A stretch of DNA of 64,000 bases from contig WIAH01000008.1 of the NCBI GenBank assembly GCA_014055525.1, positions 62,001-126,000 on the forward strand, written 5' to 3'. A program made the translations under genes and the position numbers. Numbering within the stretch: position 1 is the first letter of the stretch; each line of letters begins with the position of its first letter. The DNA is from Nitrospira sp. CR1.3. Lineage in GTDB: Bacteria > Nitrospirota > Nitrospiria > Nitrospirales > Nitrospiraceae. The notes below the pieces were generated by a model. That model saw only the letters and a program-made list of their open reading frames with translations, searched no databases and was not told where the DNA came from. This document shows positions 1,361 to 29,436 of this stretch, piece after piece.

Positions 1361-2110
1361 ATGAGGATTAAGAAGAAAGGTCCCAAGCCCTCAGCTAAGC
1401 GTCCGCCCTTGTATTTCATCGGGTATCGCGGAACAGCGCCCCTGCTGAATGAGCTCAAGACTTGGTATGACCTCGAATACGGCGGGCCCCTGTCCATCAG
1501 GCTGGAACCGGGGACATCGGAATCCTGGCATCTGGGCCACGGCCCGTGGACCGCGCACGTCGTCATTCCTCTCCCGGCCACTCACACGACCGAACTCAAA
1601 TCGCAACTGTCCTGGGAACATGAGTCGATCGGCGCGGTGGCCTCCTCGGTGATGGCGCCGCGGGATATGCCCGATACGGTTCTGTTCGCCGCGCGATTGG
1701 CTCGCGGACTGACGTTGCTGACGCAAGGCACTGCCCACGATATCACCACCCAACAGTACCTCAATCCGTCGGATTGGAACGATCGCGCACTGGCGGAATT
1801 CGTCGTCGGCGATCATGTGATGATCGCTCAAGACGATCAGAGTCGACCGAACGAAGTGTGGTGCTATACCCTCGGTCTCTCGAAATTCGGCATGGACGAA
1901 CTGGAAACGTTCCACCCGGTGGGATTGTCTGACCGCTCGCCGAAGGAGCTTCTCGTCGAATCCGCCCATGAGATGATCCGAATCAGCCAATCTCTCAAAG
2001 TCGGATCGGCTCTGCATCTGCCGGTTCTCGGCCGCACGATCAGGGTGGCTAACTATCGCACCGCTGCTCCGATCGGCCGCATGCTGAGCTTTCGGGAGAT
2101 CAAGGCCTAA
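1361..2110 (+). CDS. Hypothetical protein, 249 aa
   Basis: I do not recognise a family. The protein starts with a basic stretch (MRIKKKGPKPSAKR), has no signal peptide or membrane segment, and reads as one soluble alpha/beta domain. Around residues 40-170 it has many His, Trp and acidic residues (WHLGHGPWTAHV, SWEHESIG), but no known catalytic motif. It lies 62 bp after typA on the same strand with no clear ribosome-binding site, so it could be read through from typA. The codon use matches its neighbours and the opposite-strand ORFs look like shadows, which supports a real gene. Function unknown. Confidence 0.7.
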   Translation: MRIKKKGPKPSAKRPPLYFIGYRGTAPLLNELKTWYDLEYGGPLSIRLEPGTSESWHLGHGPWTAHVVIPLPATHTTELKSQLSWEHESIGAVASSVMAPRDMPDTVLFAARLARGLTLLTQGTAHDITTQQYLNPSDWNDRALAEFVVGDHVMIAQDDQSRPNEVWCYTLGLSKFGMDELETFHPVGLSDRSPKELLVESAHEMIRISQSLKVGSALHLPVLGRTIRVANYRTAAPIGRMLSFREIKA

Positions 2111-2171
2111 CTTCCGCGTTGTATCAATCGGTTAGCGCCACCTCCCCTGTGGTCCTAGGCCTTCCGGCCCG

Positions 2172-2201
2172 TTGACAAGGTTTCAGAGGGCACGGTACAA
2201 A
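2172..2201 (+). promoter_or_regulatory. Sigma70-type promoter for the peroxiredoxin gene
   Basis: TTGACA at 2172-2177 and TACAAA at 2196-2201 are separated by 18 bp. The -10 lies about 55 bp before the peroxiredoxin ATG, which has a strong AAGGAGG ribosome-binding site. No OxyR-type or PerR-type operator could be picked out by eye. Confidence 0.6.
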
Positions 2202-2255
2202 AGTCCTCGCACATTTTCTTAGGCCGGACTAAACCCAGTGTAAGGAGGATATCTG

Positions 2256-2726
2256 ATGAGCGACGTAGCCCCCGAAATCAAGGTTGGAGACACAGCCCCG
2301 GATTTCAACTTGAAAGATCAAGATCAGAAGGACGTGAAACTGAGTGACTATCGTGGGAAAAAGAACGTGGTCCTCTGCTTCTATCCTCTGGACTGGAGCC
2401 CGGTCTGTCAGGGTGAGAACAAGTGTTTAACCGATGACTTCCCCAAGTTCCAGAGCGCCAACGCGGAGCTGTTCGGCATCAGCTGCGACAGTTTCTTTTC
2501 GCACAAGGCATGGGCGGACTCCATGGACCTCAAGCACCGCCTGCTGTCCGACGTCCATCGAACCACCGCGAAGGCCTATGGGCTGTATTTCGAGCCCCTC
2601 AACTGCTCCAAGCGTGCGACGGTCATCGTCGATAAAAACGGCAAGGCCGCATACGTGAAAGTGCAGGAGATCAAGGTGGCGCGGGAGGACAAGGACATCC
2701 TCGACGCCCTCGCGAAGCTGCACTGA
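2256..2726 (+). CDS. Peroxiredoxin, BCP/AhpE-type (AhpC-TSA family)
   Basis: A thiol peroxidase of 156 residues that would reduce H2O2 and organic peroxides in the cytoplasm. The peroxidatic cysteine is Cys51 in PLDWSPVC, with Ser48 replacing the usual Thr of PxxxTxxC. The conserved Arg is Arg120 in KRATVIVD. Further cysteines are Cys41, Cys57, Cys77 and Cys117; any of these could be the resolving residue, so 1-Cys or 2-Cys behaviour cannot be told from sequence alone. The start is fixed by AAGGAGG 7 bp before the ATG and by the promoter upstream. A thioredoxin-like gene follows and may be the electron donor (inference). A hairpin separates the two genes. Confidence 0.93.
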
Positions 2727-2744
2727 TCTTTAGTCACAAAGTGT

Positions 2745-2784
2745 GAAAGTCGGAAAGTCATCAGGTTTAGGCTTTCCGACTTTC
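2745..2784. repeat. Intergenic inverted repeat (13-bp perfect arms)
   Basis: GAAAGTCGGAAAG at 2745-2757 and its exact reverse complement at 2772-2784 flank a 14-nt loop, and a further ACTTTCG copy follows. It lies between the peroxiredoxin stop and the thioredoxin-like start. There is no T-tract after it, so it is better described as a repeat or mRNA hairpin than as a classical terminator. Confidence 0.75.
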
Positions 2785-2795
2785 GGACTTTCGAC

Positions 2796-3140
2796 GTGAT
2801 GACTGCCATGTCCAGCACCGTGCAAGACGTCAGCGACGCCAACTATAAAGAGTTCACCGATAGCACCGGTGCCGTGGTGGCCTATGGCCTCGCCACCTGT
2901 GAGCCCTGTAAGACCTACGATCCCATTCTCGAAGAGACCGCCGCCAAGTTTCCTCAGATCAAGATCGGCAAGGCCAAGATGCACGTCCCAGGCCGCTGCC
3001 GGGAGATCAAGAAGGCCCATACATTCGAAACCTACCCCACAACACATTTTTTTGCGAACGGCAGGTTGATCCTCACCCGCGAGGGAGTGGTGGATCCGGC
3101 CGAACTTGCCGCGCTGATTTCCGATCACCTGCTGAAGTAG
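2796..3140 (+). CDS. Thioredoxin-like protein
   Basis: A 114-residue thioredoxin-fold protein with an atypical active site, Cys35-Glu-Pro-Cys38 (CEPC in place of CGPC), and the cis-proline at Pro81 (TYPTTHFF). An extra Cys68 lies in the middle. It has no signal peptide, so it should act in the cytoplasm as a disulfide reductase. The frame opens with GTG-ATG at 2796-2801, and another in-frame ATG occurs at 2808. No strong ribosome-binding site separates these because the intergenic inverted repeat abuts the start. Next to the peroxiredoxin it is a plausible reductant for it (inference). Confidence 0.82.
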   Translation: MMTAMSSTVQDVSDANYKEFTDSTGAVVAYGLATCEPCKTYDPILEETAAKFPQIKIGKAKMHVPGRCREIKKAHTFETYPTTHFFANGRLILTREGVVDPAELAALISDHLLK

Positions 3141-3252
3141 CTCTTCCTCTTTCATCCCGGTTCATCCGATCAGAAACCGGCGAGTTCCTTGACTCAATAG
3201 CGTCCTGTAGTAATGTCGAGGAAACGCTGGTAATCAAGGCGGCCTCCCCTTT

Positions 3253-4758
3253 ATGCCTGGCAACAAGACCCCCTGTTACGACGCGCACGCCCTGCTCAAT
3301 TCTCAACCGGTGATCGTGTCCGTCATCGATCCGAGGACGTACCGAATTCAGTTTCAGAACGACACCGGCTCGAAGAAATTCGGCGAAATTTCCGGACATC
3401 CCTGTTACGACAAAATCGCCGGCTCGCCTGCGCCCTGTTCATTCTGCCGAATGCCGGAGGCCCTGAACTCGAACCGCGTGGTTTCCCAGGAAGTCGCCCT
3501 GCCGGGCGACAAGCATCTGCTGGTCCACTGGTCGAAAGCTGAGACGACCGACGGCCGGACTCATGTGATCGAGACGATTGCCGACATCACCGAGCATAAG
3601 CGAACCGAGCAAGCCCTCCGCCAGTCGCAAAAGCTGGAAGCAGTGGGAAGACTCGCCAGCGGGATCGCCCACGATTTCAACAACCTGATGATGGTGGTGA
3701 TCGGGCATGCCCATCGTCTCCTGCAACAGCTCGGAGCTCATCCGGCCAGGCAGGAATTGGAACGCATCAGTCAGGCCGGCACAAGGGCCGCCGCATTAAC
3801 CAAAAAACTCCTGACCTTCAGCCGGCGGCAAGTGTTCGAACCGAAAGAAATGCCGATCAACCAGGCAATCCGGGAAATGGAGGATATTCTTCGGCAGCTC
3901 ATCGGCGAACAGATACAGACGGTCGTGGTCCTCCACCCCCATACCGGACACGCGCTCGTCGATCGGGTGCAATTCGAACAAGTCGTCATGAATCTGGTCC
4001 TGAATGCGCGCGATGCCATGCCAGACGGCGGCCTGCTCAACATCGAAACAGACAATGTAGACCTGGATGAGGCTTTCGTTCGCCTCCATCCCGGCGCAAA
4101 AGCCGGTCCCCACGTAAAGATTGCGGTTCAGGACGCGGGTTGCGGGATGGACGCTCAAACGATGTCCCACATTTTCGAGCCGTTCTTTACTACCAAAGGA
4201 CCGGACAAAGGAACCGGCCTCGGGCTGGCTACCGTATACGGCATCGTCAAACAGAGCCAGGGCTATATCGACGTCGCCAGCGAACCGGGTCGAGGCTCAC
4301 GGTTCACGGTGTATTTCCCGCGAGTCGGACCGGCTATGGCTGAAGCCCCTCCGGTGAGAAAGGAGATCAGCCCGACCGCCGCGCAGGAAATGATTCTCGT
4401 GGTCGAAGATGAAGAAAGCATCAGGAAGCTGGTCTCGGCGATTTTGCAGGACCAGGGCTACCATGTGTTGTCGGCGGCCGACGGCACGGAGGCGCTCCAG
4501 CGGTTGCAGATGCTGAAAGGTAAATGCGATCTGGTGATCACGGACGTCATCATGCCCAGGATGAAGAGCGCCGCGTTTGTCGAGGGAGTCAGGGCGATGA
4601 GGCCGGAGACCCGGGTGTTGTATATGTCCGGCTACGCAGGCGAAACGCTTCAGGCCAACGGCGTGGGTGAAGACGTGCCGTTTCTTCAGAAACCTTTCCT
4701 TCCCAATACCCTCATCGAGAAAGTCCACGAGCTGCTACAGGCAACCTCGTCGCGCTGA
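3253..4758 (+). CDS. Hybrid sensor histidine kinase (PAS-HisKA-HATPase-REC)
   Basis: 501 residues with no membrane segment, so a cytoplasmic sensor. Residues ~10-115 form a PAS-like domain that carries four cysteines, including Cys51 and the pair Cys62-x2-Cys65, a spacing suited to metal, heme or redox sensing (inference). The HisKA box has the phospho-accepting His140 (SGIAHDFNN). The ATPase domain shows the N box (Asn251), G1 (DAGCGM), F box (FFTTKG) and G2 (GTGLGLA, 320-326). A C-terminal receiver domain (~380-500) has the acidic pair in VVEDEE and phospho-acceptor Asp431 (TDVIMP). No cognate response regulator lies beside it. The final output is unknown. Confidence 0.92.
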   Translation: MPGNKTPCYDAHALLNSQPVIVSVIDPRTYRIQFQNDTGSKKFGEISGHPCYDKIAGSPAPCSFCRMPEALNSNRVVSQEVALPGDKHLLVHWSKAETTDGRTHVIETIADITEHKRTEQALRQSQKLEAVGRLASGIAHDFNNLMMVVIGHAHRLLQQLGAHPARQELERISQAGTRAAALTKKLLTFSRRQVFEPKEMPINQAIREMEDILRQLIGEQIQTVVVLHPHTGHALVDRVQFEQVVMNLVLNARDAMPDGGLLNIETDNVDLDEAFVRLHPGAKAGPHVKIAVQDAGCGMDAQTMSHIFEPFFTTKGPDKGTGLGLATVYGIVKQSQGYIDVASEPGRGSRFTVYFPRVGPAMAEAPPVRKEISPTAAQEMILVVEDEESIRKLVSAILQDQGYHVLSAADGTEALQRLQMLKGKCDLVITDVIMPRMKSAAFVEGVRAMRPETRVLYMSGYAGETLQANGVGEDVPFLQKPFLPNTLIEKVHELLQATSSR

Positions 4759-23817: not shown

Positions 23818-23911
23818 GCTTCAATAAGAAACGTGATCCTAGCAGATGGCTGGAAACCGCCGCAATGGGGCTCTCCTTGACAGCTTTCAGTCACCGGTGT
23901 ACGAAATCCTC

Positions 23912-24496
23912 ATGCGGCTTCGTCCAATCGATCTCCCCTTCTTCGACCGGTGGCGCTGGATTGCGTTGCCCCTCTGTCTCTGGCTCGCCCCCATCGTTTA
24001 CGCAGAGGAGCTTCCCATCACCAAGAATCCCTCGATTCCCGATTTTCAGAATCGTGTGGAAGATACCAAACCCTATGACTTCGACGCTCCGCCGCAAGGC
24101 ATGTTCCGCTCAATCACGTTGGCGGAGGGATTTGAGGAGGAGCTCAGCTTCCGCCGGACCCACGAGATTGTGCCGGTCAAACCGACCGAGCAGTTCCATC
24201 CCGACACGCCGGGGATATTTATCGTTTTCCAGCTCCATCAGCACTATCAAGCCTTTCAGGTTTTCGGCCGCTGCTTTCCTGAAGCGGTTCCCGGCCTGAG
24301 CCCCGAGTCGATGATCGGCCAGGATGCCATGTACATTGCGCTCGAAGACGAGTCCGGCTATCTCAAGCTCACCCCCCCCTCCGGAGGCTGGAAGCCGGGT
24401 CGCTACAAGGTGGCGATTTATGCCGGCGAGCAGGTCAACGAGGTGTCGCTGATGGGGACGATGCGCTTCACCGTCGGCGCGGACATGAAAAAGTGA
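23912..24496 (+). CDS. Hypothetical secreted protein, 194 aa
   Basis: Not recognised. The ATG at 23912 gives a signal peptide (WRWIALPLCLWLAPIVYA); a longer frame from 23846 is possible, and neither has a good ribosome-binding site. The mature protein looks like a single beta-sandwich domain: TPGIFIVFQLHQHYQAFQVFG, EDESGYLKLTPPSGGWKPGRYKVAIYAGEQV, TMRFTVG. That Gly-Arg-Tyr-Lys-Val-x-Ile-Tyr segment is common in Ig-like domains that sense or carry ligands. It is the last gene before the fluoride riboswitch. Function unknown. Confidence 0.68.
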   Translation: MRLRPIDLPFFDRWRWIALPLCLWLAPIVYAEELPITKNPSIPDFQNRVEDTKPYDFDAPPQGMFRSITLAEGFEEELSFRRTHEIVPVKPTEQFHPDTPGIFIVFQLHQHYQAFQVFGRCFPEAVPGLSPESMIGQDAMYIALEDESGYLKLTPPSGGWKPGRYKVAIYAGEQVNEVSLMGTMRFTVGADMKK

Positions 24497-24530: not shown

Positions 24531-24559
24531 TTGACGTTCCGGCACGGGGGGTATATAAG
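24531..24559 (+). promoter_or_regulatory. Sigma70 promoter of the fluoride riboswitch transcript
   Basis: TTGACG (24531-24536), 17 bp, TATAAG (24554-24559). Transcription would start near 24566, about 10 nt before the aptamer begins. The tight fit of promoter and riboswitch supports both calls. Confidence 0.75.
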
Positions 24560-24575
24560 CGACCTATCGATGTAC

Positions 24576-24632
24576 GGTGATGGGGTTCACCGGAACCGCC
24601 CGGGTTACGGCCTTGGGCTGATAACTCCTACC
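24576..24632 (+). ncRNA. Fluoride riboswitch aptamer (crcB motif)
   Basis: All parts of the fluoride aptamer are visible. The pseudoknot arm GGTGA (24576-24580) pairs with TCACC (24587-24591). Stem GGGGTT (24582-24587) pairs with AACTCC (24623-24628), with one wobble and the usual overlap at the pseudoknot junction. Stem GCCC (24598-24601) pairs with GGGC (24615-24618). The conserved single-stranded words GATGG, AACCGCC, GGGCTGAT and CTCCTACC match known crcB-motif RNAs. Fluoride binding with Mg2+ should stabilise this fold. It controls the terminator at 24664-24698. Confidence 0.9.
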
Positions 24633-24672
24633 TCCATCCGGTAGGAGCATCACCGCGATTGAAGCTCTTACC
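24625..24672 (+). promoter_or_regulatory. Antiterminator / anti-antiterminator of the fluoride switch
   Basis: GGTAGGAGC (24640-24648) can pair with CTCCTACC (24625-24632), which also takes part in the aptamer, or with GCTCTTACC (24664-24672), the 5' arm of the terminator. With fluoride bound, CTCCTACC is held in the aptamer, GGTAGGAGC is free to pair with the terminator arm, and the gene is on. Without fluoride the terminator forms. ATCACC (24649-24654) may also compete for the GGTGAT of the pseudoknot. Confidence 0.75.
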
Positions 24673-24698
24673 GAGGGCCCTTCGGTAAGGGCTTTTTT
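24664..24698 (+). terminator. Rho-independent terminator of the fluoride riboswitch
   Basis: GCTCTTACCGA (24664-24674) pairs with TCGGTAAGGGC (24682-24692), one wobble, followed by six T (24693-24698). It ends 9 bp before the ATG of the downstream gene. Confidence 0.88.
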
Positions 24699-24707
24699 AT
24701 TTGCGCG

Positions 24708-26396
24708 ATGGTGGCTCCAATGACGCGCGTTCGGTTTCCACAATATGAGATCCGGACCACGGTCCAGGAGATCCTGACCCAACTCGCTCTGCTGATCCGG
24801 CTCGAACGCAAAATGCTGGGCATCATCGCGTCCTATGCGGTCGCGATCGGCATGTTCATGCTGTGTGTCCCCATCGCCATTCAGGAATTGGTGAGCACCT
24901 TTTCCTTCGCCATCGAGCCGGTCATGATCTTCACCCTCGCGGCCGTGGTAGGACTGGCCCTGACCGGCGTAGCAGCCTTTCGCATTCTCCAGGCCAGGGC
25001 CGTCGAGACGCTGCAGCAGCGAATCTATACACGCATCGCCATCGCCTTCACGGAAACCCTTCCACGTCTCCACGAAGAATCGTTTCTTCCTCAGCATGCG
25101 CATCGCTTCGCCGAAGCCGACCTCTTGACCAGAGCCATGGTGGCCATGCTCGCGGACCTGTTCAATGTCGCGGTCGTCGGATCGATCGCCATGTCGCTCT
25201 TGGTCTTCTTCCATCCTAATTTTCTGCTCTACAACGTGATCCTGGTGGTCGGTTTCGTTGTGCTCTTGACCGTATTCGGGCAGGGCGGCTTTCAGATCAC
25301 GCTGGAAATGTCTCGCCTGAACTACGAACTCTATCACTGGATGCAGAACATCGCCGCCAACCTTCCGCATTTACGGGCCGCCGGGCGGAGTCCCTACCTG
25401 ATGCGGAAATCTGACGAGTTGACGAGAGCCTATAATCAGGTCCGACAGCGACGGTCCGACCTGTTGACCGGACGGCAGTACAAGGCCGCAGCCTTGTGGC
25501 AGGTCGTCGGACATACCGGAATGATCGCAACCGCCGGTCTGTTGGTGTCGGCGGGCCAGCTCACCGTCGGGCAGTTCGCCGCCGCGGAGATCCTGGCCGG
25601 CAACCTCCTGTTGAATATGGACGCGCTGGCCCGCAGGATGGTCCACATGTTCTTCGCCTTTGTCTCCTTTCGGGAACTGAACGCCTTCCTCTCCCTGCCT
25701 CAGGATCTGTCCGGTAACAAGGCAGTCGTTCCGCTGAACCAGTTCGGACTCCCCGGAATCAGGGTAACCGCGAGGGACCTCTCGTTCGCCCACCCGGGCT
25801 CTGACCCCCTCTTTCAGCGGTTCGACATGGAGATCGCTCCCGGTGAAAAGGTGGTCATCCAATGCCGCACGAGTTCAGAGAAAACGGCGCTCGCCAAAGT
25901 CTTAGCCGGACTGTACGCCCCGACGAGCGGTGTCGTCCGTTATAACGACATGAACCTTGCTGAAGTCACATTGGATTCGATCGACGCCTGCCGGAGCCTC
26001 ATGCTGGACTCCCATCCTGTCCTGCTCGAAGGCACGCTCGAAGACAACCTGACGCTTGGACGGCCCTGGATTTCGTACGAGGATGTGCAGTGGGCACTGC
26101 GATTCGTGGAATTGGATGAAGAGATCGATCGGATGCAGGATGGATTGACGACGATGGTCACCGGACACGCCGGACAGTTTACGTTGAGCCAAACATTACG
26201 ACTCTTGCTCGCCCGTGCGATCGCGACGCATCCGCACGTGTTGATTTTCGACGGCACGTTGCACAGCATGATCCCCTCGCTTCGCGAAGTCATCTTGCGC
26301 CGGCTTTGCTCAAAGGACGAGCCCTGGTCGTTGATCTTTGTCTCGAACGATCCGACCTTCAGCGCCTATGCCGACCGTCGCATCACGATCGCTTAA
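24708..26396 (+). CDS. ABC-exporter-like protein with a degenerate nucleotide-binding domain
   Basis: 562 residues. The N-terminal half has hydrophobic segments arranged as in type IV ABC exporters (MLGIIASYAVAIGMFMLCV, VMIFTLAAVVGLALTG, LFNVAVVGSIAMSLLVF, LYNVILVVGFVVLLTVFG, MIATAGLLVSAGQ). The C-terminal half aligns with an ABC ATPase, but its motifs are lost. Walker A reads CRTSSEKTA (Lys kept, glycines gone), the Q-loop glutamine is replaced (MLDSHP), the signature LSGGQ is LSQTL, Walker B ends IFDG with the catalytic Glu missing, and the H-loop His is Asn (VSND). ATP hydrolysis is unlikely. It is the first gene under the fluoride riboswitch, so a role in fluoride tolerance is expected, perhaps as a channel, scaffold or sensor (inference). 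The ATG at 24708 or 24720 may be used. Confidence 0.85.
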   Translation: MVAPMTRVRFPQYEIRTTVQEILTQLALLIRLERKMLGIIASYAVAIGMFMLCVPIAIQELVSTFSFAIEPVMIFTLAAVVGLALTGVAAFRILQARAVETLQQRIYTRIAIAFTETLPRLHEESFLPQHAHRFAEADLLTRAMVAMLADLFNVAVVGSIAMSLLVFFHPNFLLYNVILVVGFVVLLTVFGQGGFQITLEMSRLNYELYHWMQNIAANLPHLRAAGRSPYLMRKSDELTRAYNQVRQRRSDLLTGRQYKAAALWQVVGHTGMIATAGLLVSAGQLTVGQFAAAEILAGNLLLNMDALARRMVHMFFAFVSFRELNAFLSLPQDLSGNKAVVPLNQFGLPGIRVTARDLSFAHPGSDPLFQRFDMEIAPGEKVVIQCRTSSEKTALAKVLAGLYAPTSGVVRYNDMNLAEVTLDSIDACRSLMLDSHPVLLEGTLEDNLTLGRPWISYEDVQWALRFVELDEEIDRMQDGLTTMVTGHAGQFTLSQTLRLLLARAIATHPHVLIFDGTLHSMIPSLREVILRRLCSKDEPWSLIFVSNDPTFSAYADRRITIA

Positions 26397-26503
26397 GTCG
26401 ATTGGAACCAGCCGGGCGCGCAGTTTGACGGTCTTTCGAGCATTCTGTAGAATGCGGGTGTGACGCCTTTCCCCCTTGTTTGTGCCCTGGATCAGTGCCC
26501 CGC

Positions 26504-27232
26504 ATGAGCGCTCCACCCCCATGGGCTTCCGTGATCGTTCCGGTCAAGGATGAGCGAGAAAATCTCGCGCCGTTGACCGAAGGGTTGCTTAAGGTTATGC
26601 GTTCGCACGCGGCTTCCCGGACCCGCCCGTTTGAAATCATCTTCATCGACGATGGGAGCACCGACGGAAGCAGCGAGTTCATGGATCGATTGGCCGCCGA
26701 ACATCCGGAAGTCCGGACCTTTCATTTCGACCGCAATTACGGCAAGACAGCAGCGCTGGACGCCGGATTCACTCGGTCCGCCGGCGAACTCGTCATCGAG
26801 ATCGACGCCGATCTTCAGCAGGACAGCGAGGACATTTTGATGATGCTGCCCTTCACGGACAGCTACGACCTGGTGTGCGGGTGGAGGAAAAATCGCCAGG
26901 ACAACCTCGTGCGAAAAATCTCATCACGTATCGCCAATGTCGTCAGGAATATTTTCACTCATGACGGTGTTCACGATACGGGGTGTCCCCTGAAAGTCTT
27001 CCGGCGCTCTGCATTGGAAAAGCTCTATCTCTTCGAAGGCATGCACCGATTCCTCCCGGCGTTGACGCTCATGCACGGATTCACGGTCAAGGAAGTCCCC
27101 GTCCGGCATTACCCGCGCATCCACGGAGTGTCAAAATTCGGAGTCGGCAACCGGTTGTTCAAGAGTCTGTACGACCTTGTCGCGGTGCGCTGGATGCAAC
27201 GGCGCGTGCTGCGATATACATTCCGCGAATAG
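26504..27232 (+). CDS. DPM1/ArnC-like family 2 glycosyltransferase
   Basis: 242 residues from the ATG at 26504. GT-A fold: VIVPVKDERENLAPL at the start, IIFIDDGSTDGS, NYGKTAALDAGF, and the metal-binding EIDADLQQD. A CGWRKNRQD box and a KVPVRHYPR-like end (KEVPVRHYPRIHGVSKFG) match polyprenyl-phosphate sugar transferases. There are no C-terminal membrane helices, unlike ArnC, so it resembles DPM1. It probably loads a sugar onto undecaprenyl phosphate for the GT39 enzyme downstream. It starts 107 bp after the ABC-like gene and could be part of the fluoride-controlled transcript. Confidence 0.9.
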   Translation: MSAPPPWASVIVPVKDERENLAPLTEGLLKVMRSHAASRTRPFEIIFIDDGSTDGSSEFMDRLAAEHPEVRTFHFDRNYGKTAALDAGFTRSAGELVIEIDADLQQDSEDILMMLPFTDSYDLVCGWRKNRQDNLVRKISSRIANVVRNIFTHDGVHDTGCPLKVFRRSALEKLYLFEGMHRFLPALTLMHGFTVKEVPVRHYPRIHGVSKFGVGNRLFKSLYDLVAVRWMQRRVLRYTFRE

Positions 27233-27312
27233 TTGTGGGCCCTCGTGCGCGATTCTTTGGTCGTGGCTTGATTGATACTTGAAGAGAACGTCCATCACGC
27301 GTCACACCTCGA

Positions 27313-27633
27313 ATGTCACACTTCACCATGACGACGACCGAAATGATATGGGTCGCAATCGGATTTCTGGGCCAAGGACTCTTCTTCGGCCGCTGGGTCA
27401 TCCAGTGGATCGCCTCGGAACGAACGGCCAAGAGTCAGGTGCCGATCGCGTTTTGGTACATGAGTCTCATCGGCGGACTGATCACTCTGGCTTATGCCAT
27501 CTACCGGAAGGATCCCGTATTCATCGCCGGCCAGGGGGTCGGAGCCGTTGTGTATGTCAGAAACCTCATGCTGATCCGCCGCTCGAGCCATAATTCGGCC
27601 TCACAACGTGCGTCTTCGGTCGGTCCTTCCTGA
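27313..27633 (+). CDS. LAB_N-domain membrane protein (lipid A biosynthesis N-terminal domain)
   Basis: 106 residues covering a free-standing LAB_N domain: a first helix ending GQGLFFGRWVIQWIASE, then the hallmark KSQVPIAFWYMSLIGGLITLAYAIYRKDPVFI, and GVGAVVYVRNLMLI. Three membrane helices. The domain is found at the N-terminus of some LpxB proteins and as a single gene beside GT2 and GT39 genes, as here, suggesting a flippase or accessory subunit for lipid-linked sugars. An alternative ATG lies at 27328. Confidence 0.9.
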   Translation: MSHFTMTTTEMIWVAIGFLGQGLFFGRWVIQWIASERTAKSQVPIAFWYMSLIGGLITLAYAIYRKDPVFIAGQGVGAVVYVRNLMLIRRSSHNSASQRASSVGPS

Positions 27634-27660
27634 TCCAACACGCTGTACTCCTTGACGTCA

Positions 27661-29436
27661 ATGAACCGGGTTTCGATGCCGACATCAAAGAATCTGCTGA
27701 ACCTTGCAGTCCTTACGATCCTGGCCGTCCTGTTGCTCTTCGTGGGATTAGGCTCGATCGGCCTGACGGATCGCGATGAAGGACGGAACGCCGAAGCCGG
27801 GCGGGAGATGCTGGAGACCGGTGATTGGATTACGCCGACCTTCAACTATGAGCCGCGCTTCTATAAACCGGCGCTGGTGTACTGGCTGATGAGCGGGTCC
27901 TATTATCTCTTCGGAGTCGACGAATTTGCGGCGAGATTTCCGTCTGCCCTGTTCGGCATCGCGCTCATTCTGCTCCAATACTTGTTCCTTGCCCGCTGGC
28001 GCGATCCGCAGACAGGACTCTTCGGCGCCCTCATGCTGTTGCTGAACATTGAAATGATCGGACTCAGCCGCATGGCGCTGACCGACAGTGTCTTGGTGTT
28101 CTTCACGACGGCCGCGCAGCTGGGATTCTGGGCTGGTCTGTACGGGGAAGGCCGCAGTCGACATTGGCTCTGGTGTTTTTATGCCGGGATGGGGCTCGCC
28201 ACATTGACGAAAGGGCCGGTCGGGTTCATCGTGCCTCTGCTCACCGTGAGCCTCTACCTATCCTTCACCGGCCGATGGAAACAATTTTGGCAAAACGGTT
28301 TCCCGCTGCTCGGGACGACGCTCTTCCTCCTTGTCACACTGCCCTGGTACGCGACGATGCTTGCGATCCACGGCTCCAGCTACGTGACGATCGCCAAAGC
28401 TCAAACGGTCGGCCGCTTCATGGCGCCGATGGAAGGCCACGGCTTCGGTCTCTTGTTCTATGTCCCCGTCCTGTTGCTCGGATTTTTTCCCTGGAGCGGT
28501 TTCCTGCCGATGGCCATGTACCATTGCATCAAGACGTGGCGCGCCTCGCGCAAAGAGTCGATCGAGACCGCTCATCAGCCCGCTACTTCGAACGTCCGAC
28601 CTGCATTTGGTGAGCTCGAGCTGTTCGCCGCGCTCTGGGTTGTCGGCGCCTTCGTCTTCTTTAGCCTCTCATCCACCAAACTTCAGCATTACGTTGCGCC
28701 CCTCTTTCCCGCCGCGGCCCTGTTGAGCGCGGCCTACTGGCATCGCAGCCTTCTTGATTCCGGAACCAAAGGGCTGCGAGCCTCCATTCATCTGATGATG
28801 GGGCTGGGACTGCTCCTAGCCTTGGGATGTTCTTTGATCCCTTGGGCCTACGCGCGATTCCTGCCCAAGATGCTGAAAGAGTTTCCCGCCGCGGGGCTCT
28901 TGGACCCGAGCGCCGCGGACGCCGGCCCCTACGTCGCGGCGATGGTCCTCCTCGTCGGAATGGCCTTGGTCGGCTATTGCGGATTGCATGAGCAGCGGCG
29001 CCCTGGAGCCTTCTGGGCAGCCGGAGCCACGCTGGCCCTTGTGGCGTTGATCGCCATCCAACTCACGTTTCCTCTGTTGAACCGATATTTCATCGCTCCG
29101 CCGCAGGAACTGGCCTATGCCGCCGGTCTCAATTTAGGCTCCGCCGACCACTTCGTCGTCTATGGGGCGACCAGGCCCTCTACTGTGTTCTATGCCAAGC
29201 GCCGAGCGATCTTTGTCCCGTCGGGAGAAGAGGAAACCATTCGTGCCACTCTCGCAAGACCAGGACGGACCATGTTGTTACTCCCGGAAAGCTATCGCGC
29301 AAACCTCCCAGCACAAGCCGATCGGCTCATCCCGCTGTTGAAGCGTTACGGATATCTCCTGTTGGCGAACGAACCGATGGTCACTGTTCCCGAACCGGCG
29401 CTGGCCCAACCATCCACGCCTATTCCCGGCCATTGA
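27661..29436 (+). CDS. ArnT/PMT-like family 39 glycosyltransferase
   Basis: 591 residues from the ATG at 27661, with an in-frame TTG 9 bp upstream as alternative. GT-C fold with ~11-12 membrane helices. The first periplasmic loop holds the catalytic acid pair in TDRDEGRNAEAGREM and the FYKPALVYWLM box, both typical of ArnT-type enzymes that move a sugar from undecaprenyl phosphate to lipid A or protein. A long soluble C-terminal part (after ~430) carries the substrate-recognition domain. With the GT2 and LAB_N genes it forms a three-gene envelope-modification unit. No arnA/B-type sugar synthesis genes are near, so the sugar is unknown. Confidence 0.9.
   Translation: MNRVSMPTSKNLLNLAVLTILAVLLLFVGLGSIGLTDRDEGRNAEAGREMLETGDWITPTFNYEPRFYKPALVYWLMSGSYYLFGVDEFAARFPSALFGIALILLQYLFLARWRDPQTGLFGALMLLLNIEMIGLSRMALTDSVLVFFTTAAQLGFWAGLYGEGRSRHWLWCFYAGMGLATLTKGPVGFIVPLLTVSLYLSFTGRWKQFWQNGFPLLGTTLFLLVTLPWYATMLAIHGSSYVTIAKAQTVGRFMAPMEGHGFGLLFYVPVLLLGFFPWSGFLPMAMYHCIKTWRASRKESIETAHQPATSNVRPAFGELELFAALWVVGAFVFFSLSSTKLQHYVAPLFPAAALLSAAYWHRSLLDSGTKGLRASIHLMMGLGLLLALGCSLIPWAYARFLPKMLKEFPAAGLLDPSAADAGPYVAAMVLLVGMALVGYCGLHEQRRPGAFWAAGATLALVALIAIQLTFPLLNRYFIAPPQELAYAAGLNLGSADHFVVYGATRPSTVFYAKRRAIFVPSGEEETIRATLARPGRTMLLLPESYRANLPAQADRLIPLLKRYGYLLLANEPMVTVPEPALAQPSTPIPGH

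Follow-up and report, generated by a model that had tools for sequence, protein, structure and literature searches.

In a 64,000-nucleotide stretch of the Nitrospira sp. CR1.3 genome (contig WIAH01000008.1, hereafter the window), we found a gene behind a fluoride riboswitch that encodes a dead homologue of ABC exporters, which we call PABC and assign to clade A of its family. Our favoured, still tentative reading is that PABC, a conserved member of the ABC exporter superfamily, is fluoride-induced and dead as an ATPase and may serve as a passive conduit for anions, in particular fluoride. Confidence differs between the parts of this reading. Judged from sequence comparisons, PABC is very probably induced by fluoride and, with equally high confidence, should work without an ATP-driven cycle; a role in fluoride tolerance appears likely, and the proposal that F− is the ion conducted is rather doubtful.

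Results

The PABC gene (24708..26396, + strand, ATG start, 562 codons for amino acids) was delimited from the list of open reading frames and characterised with Pfam, NCBIfam, alignments and a phylogenetic tree. The initial annotation had ascribed an ABC exporter layout to the 562-residue frame, and this description holds: ABC_tran was the sole Pfam match (37.6 bits, cut-off 25, with matches listed up to an E-value of 1), and NCBIfam exporter models aligned over much of the protein at scores far under their cut-offs, the best being CydC (residues 97-544, 133.6 bits, cut-off 329). PABC hence combines an ABC_tran domain, above the Pfam cut-off, with an exporter-type membrane domain, below the NCBIfam cut-off. 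A profile search against solved structures returned 383 matches, the best 60 of which are ABC transporters, while an AlphaFold2 model calculated from an 11-sequence alignment reached a pLDDT of 45 and a pTM of 0.35. Alignments and dN/dS values delimit a membrane domain (residues 30-330; 24795..25697, + strand), which is the better-conserved half within clade A, and, together with Pfam, a degenerate nucleotide-binding domain (NBD; residues 350-562; 25755..26393, + strand). The source genome (G000; 3.46 Mb, 92.65% complete) carries the window PABC and one full-length paralogue with 47% identity.

To judge the motifs, PABC was aligned with 20 intact MsbA-like exporters from related genomes (all motif coordinates refer to the + strand). 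In Walker A (residues 386-394; 25863..25889), GPTGxGKTT of the intact exporters is replaced by CRTSSEKTA, exactly as first read; the glycines are gone, and Lys392 and Thr393 are kept. Walker B (HVLIFDG, residues 510-516; 26235..26255) reads FDGT instead of LDEA, keeping Asp515 and carrying Gly516 in place of the catalytic Glu, the loss of which had been recognised before. Loss of the signature was also correctly noticed, but its assignment to LSQTL was not, as the LSGGQ pentad aligns with FTLSQ (residues 491-495; 26178..26192), two residues earlier. Both the H-loop and the Q-loop residues had been described as replaced. This applies to the H-loop, in which His has given way to Asn547 (26346..26348), but is uncertain for the Q-loop, since this stretch contains one extra residue, with His436 in the window protein and a Gln shifted by one position in 31 of 61 relatives, among them 3 of the 15 clade-A rows.

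The family alignment was restricted to matches spanning at least 480 query residues, which left out split copies (one of G016 and those of G004) and yielded 61 rows, 60 of them different (L060 and L078 are identical). The losses seen in PABC recur in all 61 aligned relatives: SGGQ occurs in none of the 61 rows, Gly occupies the position of the catalytic Glu in every one, and the H-loop His is missing from all 60 rows covering the position (55 Asn, 3 Thr, 2 Ile). The Walker B Asp and the Walker A Lys are each retained in 57 of 61 rows, and with the latter kept, the proteins may still bind nucleotides. The PABC family thus lacks the catalytic Glu, the LSGGQ signature and the H-loop His of active ABC exporters, so that loss of the ATPase motor, as predicted from the absence of residues needed for hydrolysis, is well supported. 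An ATP-driven pump had been considered unlikely from the window alone, and the family-wide absence of these three elements argues in the same direction.

PABC had further been placed directly behind a fluoride riboswitch, which we could verify with Rfam: the aptamer (RF01734; 24567..24637, + strand) matches the full model (1-64) with 54.5 bits (E 2.3e-12, gathering score 34), its 3' end lies 71 nt upstream of PABC, and a switchable terminator follows it. Promoter-like boxes recognised by eye (TTGACG-17-TATAAG; 24531..24559, + strand) would place the transcription start at the aptamer, and similar boxes are found 5' of the aptamer in L060, L079 and L082 (TATAAG type) and in L063, L068 and L083-L087 (TAGACT type). 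A consensus promoter scan did not report the boxes at 24531-24559 because it demands a T at the last −10 position. According to fold predictions, the switching strand GGUAGGAG (24640..24647, + strand) pairs either with the 3' strand of the aptamer, CUCCUACC (24625..24632, + strand), in the OFF state, or, as the antiterminator of the ON state, with the 5' portion of the terminator stem, CUCUUACC (24665-24672). The intrinsic terminator itself (24661..24700, + strand; terminator and fold predictions) consists of a 16-pair stem and a U run. When pairing of bases 24567-24632 was prevented, all nine lengths tried were predicted to fold into the antiterminator; a weaker nested hairpin (24673-24696) can still form before the U run, so the switch may be incomplete. 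The leader is compatible with an ON switch, in which bound fluoride would disrupt the 16-pair terminator and turn the gene on. In L063, L066, L079 and L083-L087, the switching strand occupies, as judged by eye, the position expected of a Shine-Dalgarno sequence shortly 5' of the probable start codon, so that control at these loci may be translational.

Is this arrangement a peculiarity of the window? We searched 175 genomes of its own family, defining clade A as copies scoring at least 705 bits, and found 34 clade-A copies in 33 genomes; 11 named genomes repeat members of this set at identical coordinates (G064 = G102 and G061 = G002, for instance) and were not added. A riboswitch is located on the same strand 29-161 nt upstream of the matched region for 30 of the 34 copies, and in G016 PABC closes an operon with the nearest riboswitch 4.8 kb upstream, so that RF01734 precedes the gene or heads its operon for the window PABC and for 31 of the 34 clade-A copies, one scan of the 175 genomes behind these counts having had stricter filters and lost weak matches. 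In G002 the 5' half of an aptamer runs into the Ns of a scaffold gap, the copy of G168 is only 55 bases away from the end of its contig, and in G140 the aptamer is lost with GGTAGGAGC and the T run kept. No aptamer was found at the split copy of G004, which is outside the 34, and no riboswitch at the six next-best copies below clade A. In 21 of the 33 clade-A genomes, including that of N. moscoviensis (G102 = G064, L081), the riboswitch is the sole fluoride riboswitch found. Among 62 family copies or pieces in the first 61 genomes, only six have a same-strand riboswitch within 6 kb upstream, namely the clade-A copies of G000, G016, G017, G023 and G034 and a C-terminal piece in G035. Neither orthologues with intact motifs nor an absence of the riboswitch link elsewhere, the two outcomes named beforehand as speaking against the initial annotation, was encountered, and we regard fluoride control of PABC as well supported.

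The surroundings of the gene were inspected as well. Just 5' of the riboswitch, the window encodes a 216-residue protein (23846-24496) without any NCBIfam match; its relatives keep this position in most mapped clade-A loci and also occur near the riboswitches of L108 and L117. Genes of GT2-like, LAB_N and ArnT-like type follow 3' of PABC on the same strand (26480-29436) and form, by weak NCBIfam and Pfam matches, an envelope-sugar set. The riboswitch-PABC unit occupies a common site near GT2/ArnT-like genes in 14 of 16 mapped clade-A loci; in G016 (L070), PABC is the last gene of a different operon next to the GT2/ArnT-like block, and the unit is located elsewhere in G017 (L068), G087 (L142) and G074 (L141). 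We rejected the idea that control is tied to the downstream envelope genes because of the different placement of clade A in these four genomes.

Going beyond the initial annotation, we found that PABC is one branch of a wider family of dead ABC proteins. In a tree of 59 of the 61 rows (all but the duplicate L078 and the truncated L057), clade A is monophyletic (100/100), for which a single capture by the riboswitch suffices. A kinase-linked set is monophyletic, too (100/100), and both clades are nested among HlyD-linked members; clade A stands closest to tandem copies of HlyD-linked operons, an exact placement with weak support (86/53). The 50 mapped loci (one being a duplicate) comprise 16 of clade A, 29 HlyD-linked and 5 kinase-linked ones. 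HlyD-linked loci encode a HlyD-like adaptor, an OEP/TolC-like protein and one or two copies of the family member, often with a 4HB_MCP-type protein behind them and purE/purK nearby; an intact ABC gene next to these operons was not seen in the mapped loci. The source genome has such a paralogous operon outside the window (L058:4545-10239). At the kinase-linked loci (L065:5973-10513, likewise L042, L061, L073 and L075), genes for a PAS histidine kinase and an NtrC-type sigma-54 regulator come after the family member, a combination which possibly represents a transporter-like sensor. The riboswitch is absent from both the HlyD-linked and the kinase-linked sister clade; hence, the scaffold as such is not specific to fluoride.

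Sequence conservation indicates strong purifying selection on PABC, most of all on its membrane domain. For seven clade-A pairs, dN/dS of the membrane domain was 0.027-0.077 and that of the NBD 0.087-0.158, the values of the two pairs containing the window PABC being rough since dS exceeds 1. Within clade A, mean conservation is 0.774 for the membrane domain and 0.670 for the NBD, and the membrane domain is the better conserved of the two in 101 of 104 pairs (one of the 105 pairs was dropped as near-identical). This holds for 26 of 190 pairs of intact exporters (0.750 and 0.784), 167 of 406 pairs of the HlyD-linked set (29 rows; 0.644 and 0.662) and 10 of 10 pairs of the kinase-linked set, with the pairs in none of these comparisons being independent. 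Of the residues that clade A has fixed and that are rare in the rest of the family, 30 belong to the membrane domain and 6 to the NBD (Fisher p 0.004). We also considered added Phe residues as a mark of clade A and found them unpersuasive, given gains at 114, 152, 168, 195, 316 and 551 and losses at 87, 222, 304 and 440. A sequencing error or local decay as origin of the broken motifs was rejected, since all 61 aligned relatives share the losses and dN/dS is 0.03-0.16.

Some clade-A copies lie together with Na+/H+ antiporter, Usp and enolase genes in loci headed by riboswitches. One stretch of L142 (G087) has, in this order, a riboswitch, PABC, two antiporters, Usp and enolase; a further riboswitch with a small protein follows, then a dynamin-like GTPase, HEAT-repeat and other ORFs and an AAA-like gene, and finally a riboswitch with an ORF, an antiporter and Usp. 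L141 (G074) and L070 (G016) have related gene sets. Fluoride islands of this kind, with several riboswitches, antiporters, Usp, a dynamin-like GTPase, AAA-like and HEAT-repeat ORFs and, in L142, enolase, span L142:509-14894, L140/L141 and L070:3449-10555. At L143:7886-12935, two fluoride riboswitches in tandem precede genes of MFS transporter, OEP and HlyD-like type, which would make up a tripartite-efflux set under fluoride control. L154 (G035:C42, about 1397-4740) comprises a riboswitch, an antiporter and Usp, followed by a C-terminal motor-less ABC piece of about 75 residues, and at L105 (G006:C1, near 1779159) an enolase gene lies downstream of a fluoride riboswitch on the same strand. Antiporters and enolase are recognised fluoride-riboswitch genes according to the available part of the review PMC11139923.

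CrcB matches were obtained in 68 of the 175 family genomes (67 above cut-off). Of the 33 clade-A genomes 2 have a match, compared with 66 of the remaining 142 (Fisher p 6e-6; the genomes are related, and the test is not phylogeny-independent). The two clade-A genomes concerned are G101, with an intact CrcB, and G076, with a partial match containing a stop; CrcB was absent from all 16 clade-A genomes that were also searched for the antiporter (see below). In the first set, which comprises 37 genomes of the family, no CLC (PF00654) was found. The riboswitch-type antiporter is present in 7 of 16 clade-A genomes tested and was not found in the other 9, at E 1e-60 for G000, G023 and G034 and at E 1e-20 for G064 and G066-G070; a truncated antiporter piece lies within the PABC locus of G023. 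At the thresholds used, clade A, riboswitch, CrcB, CLC and antiporter are all missing from 13 of the 37 first-set genomes, four of which are at least 90% complete. Missing exporters alone therefore call for no substitute, which weakens the idea that clade A is a simple replacement of Fluc.

Discussion

What could a motor-less exporter do for a cell exposed to fluoride? In the sequence of events that we propose, fluoride would enter the cell as HF and the riboswitch would release the PABC gene. The protein would reside in the inner membrane, probably as a dimer, and work without ATP hydrolysis, and F− or another anion would exit through its passive, perhaps nucleotide-gated conduit, driven by the inside-negative membrane potential. 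PABC would then work in the manner of Fluc channels, but on the scaffold of an ABC exporter, by analogy with CFTR as anion channel. Three features agree with such a passive conduit: the conservation of the membrane domain, the erosion of the motor and the control by fluoride. Weighing against it are the fluoride genes already present in some clade-A genomes (the riboswitch-type antiporter in 7 of 16, an intact CrcB in G101), the copies devoid of an aptamer (that of G140 and the split one of G004) and the sister clades without a riboswitch. The most far-reaching version, a third class of bacterial fluoride exporter which arose from an ABC line by loss of the ATPase and one capture by the riboswitch and which, as a passive or nucleotide-gated channel, replaces Fluc and CLC-F in some Nitrospira, is speculative and on balance we do not expect it to hold.

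The main rival is that a dead transporter has become a sensor or scaffold, whose membrane domain would bind a ligand or feel fluoride stress (via pH, Mg2+ or the envelope) and which would signal to partners without moving anything. The PAS histidine kinase and NtrC-type regulator after the sister-clade member in 5 of 50 mapped loci speak in its favour; however, none of the 16 mapped clade-A loci has an adjacent kinase save L085, with kinase and regulator downstream, and fluoride-riboswitch products appear, from the available part of PMC11139923, to be mostly effectors rather than sensors. We thus consider signalling less probable than the conduit, though a serious contender. Unlikely to a greater degree is that PABC forms the passive part of a wider envelope conduit or stress transport system, handling another substrate or acting in trans with HlyD-like and TolC-like parts. 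Family members do stand beside HlyD-like and OEP genes in 29 of 50 mapped loci, and one HlyD-linked paralogous locus is present in the source genome, but clade A adjoins neither HlyD nor OEP in its 16 mapped loci and is separately controlled.

The remaining explanations concern the broken motor. Degenerate half-sites are common in heterodimeric ABC exporters, and since intact ABC exporters are present in the source genome, PABC might be the catalytically silent half of a heterodimer with one of them encoded elsewhere. Among the annotated ORFs of the mapped loci, however, an intact ABC gene adjoins none of the clades, and in a mixed dimer with the catalytic Glu and the signature gone from one half, as both are in PABC, neither site would be complete; we consider this pairing quite improbable. 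Hardly more credit, and if anything slightly less, goes to an ATP-driven pump with a non-standard mechanism: the retained Walker A Lys and Walker B Asp (57/61 each) would suit it, but the catalytic Glu, signature and H-loop His are missing from all covering rows and the NBD is the less conserved half of clade-A proteins. That the gene is simply decaying, as the broken motifs, the internal stop in G090 and the short C-terminal piece behind riboswitch, antiporter and Usp in G035 might suggest, is contradicted by its conservation (33 of 34 clade-A copies without internal stop, dN/dS 0.03-0.16), and we give this explanation almost no weight.

Whatever its function, PABC is a riboswitch-controlled, conserved membrane protein unlike Fluc and CLC-F, and 31 of 33 clade-A genomes are without a CrcB match. 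An earlier report of PABC under fluoride control was not found in our literature search, which had most subscription journals outside its coverage. Only two kinds of bacterial fluoride exporters, Fluc and CLC-F, are named in the available part of PMC11139923. Fluoride riboswitch control is common to PABC and both of them, and passive exit of F−, as proposed here for PABC, would be a further parallel to Fluc/CrcB; however, PABC is homologous to neither, belonging to a protein family unrelated to Fluc/CrcB (no PF02537 match) and to the CLC-F fluoride/proton antiporter (no Voltage_CLC match). Like PABC, the CPA2-type Na+/H+ antiporter stands behind a fluoride riboswitch; this applies to most of the riboswitch loci inspected in the first 61 genomes, and several genomes have it at one locus together with clade A. 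It is, however, a secondary transporter and PABC an ABC homologue.

With ABC exporters (MsbA, CydC/CydD, type I secretion and NHLM peptide exporters), PABC shares, by profile match, the fold order of membrane domain and NBD. In contrast to them, it lacks the catalytic Glu, signature and H-loop His, and in clade A the membrane domain is better conserved than the NBD; PABC is therefore, as far as its sequence tells, an ABC exporter by descent that does not qualify as an active one. If PABC does not conduct, there is still a conserved and regulated ABC family that lacks its motor and occurs in three gene contexts, with which one can ask which role ABC membrane domains play without ATP hydrolysis. 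If it does, a bacterial ABC exporter would have turned into a channel, CFTR being the best-known case. CFTR forms its anion channel on the scaffold of an ABC exporter and has a degenerate site; it differs from PABC in being eukaryotic, full-length and phosphorylation-gated and in keeping one intact ATPase site. According to the available part of PMC13406507, CFTR passes fluoride, with a markedly lower current when NaF replaced NaCl, and is thus a modest precedent for a PABC conduit.
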